Assembly: GCF_025567045.1 (NCBI RefSeq)
Contig: NZ_JAOQJK010000004.1
Location: 1 to 64,000 of the forward strand
Length of the DNA stretch: 64,000 bases
Direction: 5' to 3'
DNA from: Barnesiella propionica
GTDB taxonomy: Bacteria; Bacteroidota; Bacteroidia; Bacteroidales; Barnesiellaceae
Shown: in pieces, positions 60,841 through 62,514 of the stretch
Numbering within the stretch: position 1 is the first letter of the stretch
Layout of the letters: every line of letters begins with the position of its first letter
Translations under genes and position numbers: made by a program
The notes under the pieces: model-generated
What the model was told of the DNA's origin: nothing
Database searches by the model: none
Seen by the model: only the letters and a program-made list of their open reading frames with translations

Positions 60841-61302
60841 TTAGCAGATTTCTATTTCGTCTTTAGTTACGGTTCGTTCGCAATACTGGCATTTTATGGC
60901 TATGTTTTTTTTATCTACGACATGGAAAATTGTGCTCATCGGTTCGTTGTTAGTTATACATTTGGGATTATTACAGCGAACGATATCGTAAATAACATCG
61001 GGCAGTTCTACCTGTCTTTTCTCCGTAACACGATAGTTCCGGATAATGTTTATTTTAGCATTCGGGGCAATAAGGGCGATTTTGTTCAGTTCTTCTTCTT
61101 TAAAAAATACATCCGCTACTTTAATGATCCCTTTTGTTCCTATTTTCTTGCTGGCCAGATTGTTTCCTATGGTTATGCTGTTGCTCAGCTTATCCAGTCC
61201 CAAGAGCGATACTACTTTGAAAAGTTGGCTTGAAGGTATATGATCTATCACGGTTCCGTTCTCGAGGGCTGCGACTTCCAGTTCTTTTTTTTCGACATTC
61301 AT
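60841..61302 (-). CDS. pyrI: Aspartate carbamoyltransferase regulatory subunit
   Basis: A protein of 153 residues. It binds CTP/ATP and controls PyrB. The N-terminal allosteric domain ([15 protein letters not shown]) is followed by the zinc domain with four Cys: CNNPKC near 109-114 and CQYC near 138-141. It begins 21 bases after pyrB. Confidence 0.95.
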
Positions 61303-61323: not shown

Positions 61324-62238
61324 TTAAATTTCGATACCTAATACTTTGCAAATAATGGCCTGACGGGCATATAAACCGTTCCTGGCCTGTTCGAAATAAT
61401 ATGCTTTAGGATTATTATCCACATCGTAGGATATTTCATTGACCCTGGGTAACGGATGGAGAATGCGCAGGTTGTTTTTGCTGCCGTCAAGCATTTCGTT
61501 ATGCAGGGTATATACGTTTTTGACTTTCTCATATTCCATGAGATCGGTGAACCGTTCCCGTTGGACACGTGTCATATATAATATATCGGCATGGTTGATT
61601 ACCTCTTCCGAAAAATCGCTGTGTTCCTCGTACGGAATATGATTTTTTTCACAGAATAGTTTGTATTCTACCGGCATTTTCAGCTCATCGGGAGCGACGA
61701 AATGGAACGTGGGACTGAAGTGAGACATAGCCATGAGCAGGGAATGTACGGTACGCCCGTATTTCAAATCGCCTACCATCGTGATGTTCAGATTTTCCAG
61801 TGTTCCCTGTGTTTTATAAATGGAATAAAGATCCAGCATGGTTTGTGACGGATGCTGGTTGGCTCCGTCTCCGGCATTGATCACCGGTACCGATGAAATT
61901 TCCGAGGCATAACGGGCAGCCCCTTCCAGATAATGGCGCATAATGATGAGATCTACATAATTGTTTACCATCATAATGGTGTCTTTGAGCGTCTCTCCTT
62001 TTGAAGAGCTGGTGGTGGAAGCATCGGAAAAACCTATGATTCTACCGCCTAAACGGTTCACCGCCGTTTCGAAACTGAGCCGTGTGCGGGTGGACGGCTC
62101 GAAGAAAAGGGTTGCGATTACTTTTCCTTCCAGAACTTTCCGGTCGGGATTTTCTTCAAAACGCCTGGTTTTTTCCAGCAGGTCCAGGATCTCTTCTTTT
62201 GAAAAGTCTGTAATAGATACTAAACTTTCTTGTTTCAT
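61324..62238 (-). CDS. pyrB: Aspartate carbamoyltransferase catalytic subunit
   Basis: A protein of 304 residues. It makes carbamoyl-aspartate, the first committed step of pyrimidine synthesis. Motifs: [12 protein letters not shown] near 48-59, MRHYLEGAA near 102, [14 protein letters not shown] near 128-141 and [11 protein letters not shown] near 262. It is the first gene of a five-gene minus-strand operon whose leader holds an attenuator-like hairpin and a small reading frame. Confidence 0.96.
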
Positions 62239-62277
62239 CGGTTAAGAGCGTAATGGGTTATAATATGTTTTTATATA

Positions 62278-62320
62278 CAAAAAAGCCAATCCGACTTTAG
62301 AGGGCGAACTGGCCTTTTTG
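62278..62320 (-). promoter_or_regulatory. Terminator-like attenuator hairpin before pyrB
   Basis: On the minus strand a 13-bp stem (62308-62320 pairing with 62278-62290, two G-T pairs), a 17-base loop and a right arm ending in a run of T. It lies about 40 bases before the pyrB start and after the promoter, so it would stop transcription in the leader unless prevented. Confidence 0.75.
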
Positions 62321-62407
62321 ACGATATCTTATCGGCAATTGAATGCTTTGGTCTCGAAAAGAGAGCCTGTATTTCAGTAGCTTGTATGTGTTTACAAACA
62401 ATTTCAT
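62297..62407 (-). CDS. Candidate 36-residue pyrB leader peptide
   Basis: A frame of 36 codons begins with ATG (62407) and ends with TAA (62297-62299). The stop codon falls in the loop of the attenuator hairpin, so a ribosome that reaches it would cover the left arm and block the terminator. The transcript contains a pyrimidine tract (CTCTCTTTTC) about 15 codons in, a plausible pause site at low UTP. The ATG lies only about 8 bases after the -7 box, so the message would be nearly leaderless. E. coli pyrBI works this way with a 44-residue peptide; the sequence here is not similar. Confidence 0.55.
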   Translation of the reverse strand: MKLFVNTYKLLKYRLSFRDQSIQLPIRYRQKGQFAL

Positions 62408-62415
62408 AACGAATA

Positions 62416-62444
62416 CAAATGTACAAAAAAAAGTCCATTTCAAA
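62416..62444 (-). promoter_or_regulatory. Promoter of the pyrB operon
   Basis: On the minus strand TTTG (62441-62444) and TACATTTG (62416-62423) are 17 bases apart, near the Bacteroidetes consensus. The leader to pyrB is about 170 bases. Confidence 0.55.
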
Positions 62445-62506: not shown

Positions 62507-62514
62507 TACCTTTG
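62507..62514 (+). promoter_or_regulatory. -7 promoter box for the penicillin-binding protein gene
   Basis: TACCTTTG matches TAnnTTTG, 84 bases before the ATG at 62599. The nearest TTTG is 27 bases further upstream, too far for a standard -33. Confidence 0.45.

Follow-up and report, generated by a model that had tools for sequence, protein, structure and literature searches.

A probable translation-coupled, UTP-responsive attenuator with a near-leaderless reading frame upstream of pyrBI in Bacteroidales

Attenuation of pyrBI is a textbook case from enteric bacteria, and the occurrence of the same gene pair behind a short reading frame and a terminator-like hairpin in Bacteroidota raises the question of whether it is controlled in a similar way there. 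We addressed this in Barnesiella propionica using a window, the whole stretch of DNA analysed, of 64,000 nucleotides (GCF_025567045.1, contig NZ_JAOQJK010000004.1, positions 1 to 64,000). On its minus strand lie pyrB, encoding the aspartate carbamoyltransferase catalytic chain (61324..62238; Pfam PF02729, PF00185), and pyrI, encoding the regulatory chain (60841..61302; Pfam PF01948, PF02748), with a transglycosylase gene divergent from the pair. Among the matches listed, the window PyrB shares up to 91% identity with relatives of a Candidatus Barnesiella genome and 90% with that genome itself (L001). A preliminary description of this DNA had likened the logic of the leader to that of the E. 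coli pyrBI attenuator. Frame openness, terminator and spacing support the comparison at the level of anatomy, and the leader is probably a translation-coupled, UTP-responsive transcription attenuator of the E. coli pyrBI kind, built around a near-leaderless frame. We found no report of a pyrB leader attenuator in Bacteroidota in the open-licence literature.

The promoter expected in the leader is present and is of Bacteroidetes type. Reading the minus strand towards pyrB, a -33 element TTTG (62441..62444) is followed by a 17-nt spacer, the -7 box TACATTTG (62416..62423), 8 nt and the leader ATG, in agreement with the Bacteroidetes sigma-A consensus TTTG / TAnnTTTG as given in PMC7366714. Because the TAnnTTTG box occupies -12 to -5 according to PMC9723704, the window transcript would start at about 62411, leaving a 5′ UTR of about 4 nt. 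A transcript start downstream of the ATG would, according to the preliminary description, refute its proposal; judged by box position, the predicted start lies before the ATG. A generic sigma-70 and terminator scan of the window reported neither the leader promoter nor the leader terminator. On the plus strand, a TACCTTTG box at 62507-62514 may be a divergent promoter of the transglycosylase gene.

The leader frame itself, MKLFVNTYKLLKYRLSFRDQSIQLPIRYRQKGQFAL (62297..62407, minus strand), comprises 36 codons plus TAA by ORF reading, as previously described, and its openness and selection were tested in relatives. It opens with the ATG at 62407-62405 and closes with the TAA at 62299-62297, which falls, again as described, inside the 8-nt loop of the terminator hairpin (62278..62320, minus strand, from folding). 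The 3′ arm of this hairpin runs into six T (62284-62279), and pyrB follows at a distance of about 40 nt. Its minimum free energy of -20.2 kcal/mol compares with -7.86 (sd 2.32) in 200 shuffles, none of which is as good (z -5.3). While the hairpin and T run of the preliminary description are both present, its count of 13 bp does not hold: the minimum free energy stem has 17 pairs and one bulge, or 11 pairs when the outer C-G and five A-U pairs are set aside. In other phyla a terminator preceding a pyrimidine gene usually signals PyrR-type or riboswitch control, and the terminator here could on that ground answer to an RNA-binding protein or ligand with the frame incidental. We consider this very unlikely, as the window has no Rfam match at gathering, 15 related loci returned one tRNA only at gathering, the leader alone gives weak matches far below gathering scores, and the conserved frame would go unexplained.

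To place the putative translation-coupled attenuator in a wider context, pyrB upstream regions were collected from the best 80 of 591 loci in one genome-contig scan and from whole-genome searches that contributed no more than 30 loci each. Removal of copies left 134 distinct upstreams, window included, of which 131 were usable; L127 (under 150 nt) and L010 and L123 (no upstream DNA, and outside the class defined here) were left out, L289-L291 enter no count and L292 starts inside pyrB. Class membership required an exact TAnnTTTG box and a terminator, with no exact box between terminator and pyrB, and ignored the frame. By this rule an intrinsic terminator stands between promoter and pyrB in the window and in a class totalling 53 of the 131 usable upstreams, window counted. 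Attenuators with other boxes may be missed because the class needs an exact TAnnTTTG, which is lacking in 23 upstreams, 12 of them with a terminator near pyrB. Terminators close to pyrB without an exact TAnnTTTG upstream occur in L098, L101, L307 and L310, which are possible attenuators outside the class rule.

In one class member (L096) no ATG lies 40 nt or less from the box, and the frame was tested in the other 52 leaders. An ATG lies 4-12 nt past the box in 40 of these (shuffle mean 10.3), and in 39 no stop codon comes sooner than 12 nt before the hairpin (2.27 leaders on average in shuffles, sd 1.45). Of the 40 leaders with such an ATG, 2 are open in the +1 frame and 5 in the +2 frame. 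Loss of the frame with retention of the hairpin, which the preliminary description had regarded as evidence against its proposal, is therefore not the pattern in these leaders selected on box and terminator. The 39 include L106, with 11 codons only. As the shuffles leave kinship in place, counts were also taken after clustering by PyrB identity, where a near-leaderless open frame is retained in 22/30 (95%), 15/23 (90%) and 6/14 (85% identity) leaders; we count the last of these figures against an attenuator. An ATG within 40 nt of the box and at least 60 nt before the terminator is found in 45 class leaders. Frames of 53 and 51 codons run through the terminator in L120 and L122, with the start chosen by eye and the nearest box degenerate; counting these two and longer 5′ UTRs, 47 of the 53 have a frame able to reach the terminator. 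The leader frame is absent in six of the 53 class members (L014, L096, L097, L103, L105 and L106), which we count against an attenuator.

For background, TAnnTTTG sites were counted across a Barnesiella relative. An ATG follows at 4-12 nt in 13-15% of them and a frame of at least 26 codons in 6%; for boxes with a -33 TTG the figures are 86/641 with the ATG and 38/641 with at least 26 open codons. Among pyrB upstreams outside the class with a box within 80 nt, 5/45 have such an ATG. A search for like anatomy elsewhere, covering 2.68 of 3.08 Mb of the Barnesiella relative together with the window, gave 22 candidates, two being the pyrB leaders of that relative and of the window and most others resembling chance intragenic frames. 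A separate observation concerns G021 (pieces L155-L274), where a minus-strand box ending at reverse-complement position 124495 precedes a 24-codon near-leaderless frame that ends 12 nt before a strong hairpin; the gene 3′ of these is presumably the phosphoglycerate mutase gene gpmI.

In the 39 leaders the ATG falls 5-10 nt past TTTG, which from the box suggests a leaderless-type start. Such starts are rare in the phylum: in B. thetaiotaomicron about 3.7% of 5′ UTRs are shorter than 10 nt (PMC7366714), and the leaderless share in F. psychrophilum is 5.5% (PMC9723704), which makes the near-leaderless bias of pyrB leaders notable. The distance from ATG to terminator in the same 39 is 41 to 110 nt with a median of 91, and the stop lies at most 12 nt before the hairpin in 6, inside it in 25 and beyond it in 8. 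Over 51 leaders, consisting of 45 main-set frames with at least 60 nt and six from two further families, ATG-to-terminator spacing is 91.3 nt (sd 8.9), while box-to-terminator spacing is 102.5 nt (sd 12.1). A family around a Dysgonomonas genome (L057, L304, L305, L308, L311) is instructive, as its ATG is 24-37 nt from the box, and its start codon not within about 5 nt of the predicted transcript start, yet 84-103 nt from the terminator. Spacing seems, from these sequences, to be kept from the start codon rather than from the transcript start and therefore points to the ribosome.

Substitution counts point to selection on the frame. For nine Barnesiella-type leaders (L001 and eight relatives, 55 gap-free columns), pN/pS, taken as simple pairwise counts on related rows, is 0.30 in frame and 1.02/1.06 in the other frames; for 16 leaders including the window, gapless over 68 nt, it is 0.53 against 0.94/1.22, with a weaker contrast in the six Coprobacter-type rows alone (0.56 against 0.79/0.95). 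Values below 1 in the Barnesiella-type leaders would also be expected of a small gene for a stable protein of 30-50 amino acids that has its own terminator and sits 5′ of pyrB by chance. That reading is extremely improbable, given that length and end point are kept although the peptide varies by genus and shifts frame in L091 and L094 of the Barnesiella group, that class members lack an exact promoter box 3′ of the terminator and before pyrB, and that the stop is inside the terminator in 25 of 39 leaders. Because peptide sequence varies and the frame shifts in this way, the sequence of the peptide seems less important than frame openness and end point. The peptide is also, compared by eye, unlike E. 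coli PyrL, as the preliminary description had stated.

A second hairpin upstream of the terminator may provide the site at which RNA polymerase is held. In the window this proposed pause hairpin, GGCTCTCTTTTCGAGACC (62350..62367, minus strand, from folding), lies 40-57 nt after the ATG. The pyrimidine tract of the preliminary description is present as CTCTCTTTTC at 62365-62356, inside this hairpin and not past it; we count this against an attenuator, and both hairpin and U-rich stretch are weak in the window itself. In nine Barnesiella-type leaders both hairpins are kept (97.9% of cells paired) with two pairs changed on both sides, and 57/500 shuffles give at least as many. Across 16 leaders the upstream hairpin occupies the same columns of a gapless alignment. 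It folds in 13 rows, the exceptions being L003, L054 and L087, the last with only three pairs. Pairing covers a modest 76.8% of cells and is highest at zero slide, and four pairs are changed on both sides (109/500 shuffles reach that). Strength of the upstream hairpin is significant on 47 leaders in a test that kinship inflates, and in 18 collapsed leaders it is not stronger than in shuffles (66/300); the fold z of the leader 5′ of the terminator, similarly inflated by kinship, has a mean of -1.88 with 36/49 below -1. The U fraction 9-19 nt past the best upstream hairpin is 0.377 against 0.253 (sd 0.018; 0/200 shuffles), and 0.376 against 0.272 in 18 representatives (0/300 shuffles). Pyrimidine runs of at least 7 number 16 against 4.7 expected (0/200 shuffles) and runs of four T 20 against 13.6 expected (6/200 shuffles), although the overall U content of the leaders is not high. 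This U content, the ordinary strength of the upstream hairpin in the collapsed leaders and its modest pairing speak against an attenuator.

These features bear on whether UTP or translation itself would be sensed. The trp, his and thr leader-peptide attenuators for amino acids likewise combine a short frame, an upstream hairpin and a terminator, and a translation-coupled attenuator sensing general translation, or an amino acid via leader codons, would account for the frame itself being the conserved feature. It would also fit the leader peptide composition, in which Arg (10.2 vs 7.9/7.2%), His (6.5 vs 4.5/2.7%) and Gln (7.1 vs 2.6/3.7%) are commoner in frame than in the other frames. Amino-acid attenuators, however, have a codon run and an antiterminator, and neither was seen in the pyrB leaders: by eye, no one-codon run is common to several genera of leader peptides, and no competing antiterminator pairing was seen in the inspected leader folds. 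Within the Barnesiella group, an AAGCC arm is common to the upstream hairpin and the terminator and allows about five alternative pairs, and no AAGCC-like shared arm was seen in other genera (both by eye). On the folds inspected a stalled ribosome would leave the terminator free, which is the wrong sign for amino-acid control, and the U excess past the hairpin would be unexplained. Sensing of general translation or an amino acid, rather than UTP-dependent pausing, is therefore unlikely in our judgement. Clues for amino-acid leader-peptide attenuators in Flavobacterium are mentioned in PMC9723704.

The E. coli K-12 pyrL leader serves as a yardstick for the spacing and elements of the UTP-responsive reading. 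Both systems precede the pyrBI gene pair and have a leader frame overlapping the terminator (44 codons in E. coli), and the ATG is 90 nt from the terminator in E. coli and about 91 nt in Bacteroidales. In E. coli the leader between about +32 and +50, counted from the ATG, also folds as an upstream hairpin, and the U/pyrimidine tract TTTTTCTTCCC lies at +60; the U excess past a hairpin in Bacteroidales resembles this to some degree, with a weaker U tract. Sequence and peptide are unlike, the promoter is of Bacteroidetes type, and the near-leaderless Bacteroidales ATG is about 1-6 nt from its predicted transcript start, unlike that of E. coli. The stop lies beyond the hairpin in E. coli, whereas in Bacteroidales it is mostly inside (25/39). 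The E. coli rph-pyrE attenuator, a UTP-sensed, ribosome-coupled terminator with a stop codon near the hairpin, uses a long gene as its upstream frame, in contrast to the dedicated short frame of Bacteroidales pyrB. With peptides unlike by eye and spacing alone in common, the likeness to the enteric leader may reflect convergence or deep common descent, and we keep both in play because the spacing is so alike.

A further element is a positioned CATA motif, which in the window (62385..62388, minus strand) starts 19 nt past the A of the leader ATG. CATA starts 18 or 19 nt after that A in 11/18, 12/25 and 23/47 leaders, against means of 0.32, 0.47 and 0.72 in 100 shuffles each and a maximum of 3 (2 for the 18-representative set). 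The motif was first noticed by eye and tested on the same leaders, which is allowed for by a null taking the best 4-mer at any place; this reached 7. In the Barnesiella relative CATA occupies that place in 14/2334 long frames (first ATG) and in 0/84 frames 4-12 nt past a box, and E. coli pyrL has only CAT there. The motif occurs in two codon phases, with CAT as His or ACA TAT as Thr-Tyr, and therefore the nucleotides seem to matter. We know of no function for a positioned CAUA; our guess is an RNA polymerase pause as the AUG emerges.

Our results suggest a molecular model in which transcript start, leader translation, pausing and termination are all predicted from the DNA, and UTP is suggested as the signal by analogy, gene identity and the U excess. 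RNA polymerase would start a few nucleotides before the leader ATG, a ribosome would load on the nearly leaderless start, and the polymerase would be held at the upstream hairpin and over the U/pyrimidine-rich sequence that follows. Scarce UTP would make this hold long and let the ribosome catch up and cover the stem by the time the polymerase reaches the terminator about 91 nt past the ATG, with its stop codon within, just before or beyond the hairpin, and transcription would read through into pyrB and pyrI. With ample UTP the polymerase would outrun the ribosome, the hairpin would form and transcription would stop. According to PMC4824070, terminators in the first 100 bp or so of a frame, where translation is not yet coupled, are much less suppressed, and a terminator is suppressed by a ribosome that finishes translation close to it; transcription-translation coupling at E. 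coli pyrL is described in PMC5021804.

Class leaders with a frame are found in Barnesiella, Coprobacter, part of the Muribaculaceae, Dysgonomonas and others, and the tree needs few changes and is compatible with either direction of change. None of the 10 Parabacteroides rows and none of the 10 Bacteroides/Phocaeicola-clade rows in the tree belongs to the class, many being without an exact TAnnTTTG; a related box lies close before pyrB in these groups (by eye). In four Parabacteroides upstreams (L036, L043, L045, L073) a terminator-like hairpin stands about 70-40 nt before pyrB, its T run abutting the pyrB promoter region, and is possibly the end of an upstream gene. The Dysgonomonas family of 10 upstreams has the frame in four and five members outside the class; L303 has a terminator but only one codon from its first ATG, which we count against an attenuator. 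In a further family of 10 upstreams, also with five outside the class, L299 and L302 carry frames of 27 and 21 codons, while L294, L296 and L297 have a terminator but 4-13 leader codons, again counted against it. The leaders of these three may be decaying or represent a shorter variant.

Bacteroidota are generally without Shine-Dalgarno sequences. A fuller scenario, which we put forward as tentative and rather doubtful, is that the pyrBI attenuator is ancestral in Bacteroidales and was lost in Bacteroides and Parabacteroides, that CAUA is a UTP-dependent pause as the AUG emerges, letting the ribosome load without a Shine-Dalgarno sequence, and that a second pause at the hairpin and U-rich stretch lets the ribosome draw level ahead of the terminator at about 91 nt. 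If true, the scenario would amount to pyrBI control with two pauses and would imply tight transcription-translation coupling in Bacteroidota. Because the pyrBI layout and a spacing of nearly 90 nt recur in a distant phylum, our analysis suggests that ribosome and polymerase impose this spacing as a physical constraint. The positioned CAUA offers a testable element, and the pyrB leader would be a natural reporter for whether translation closely follows transcription in Bacteroidota.
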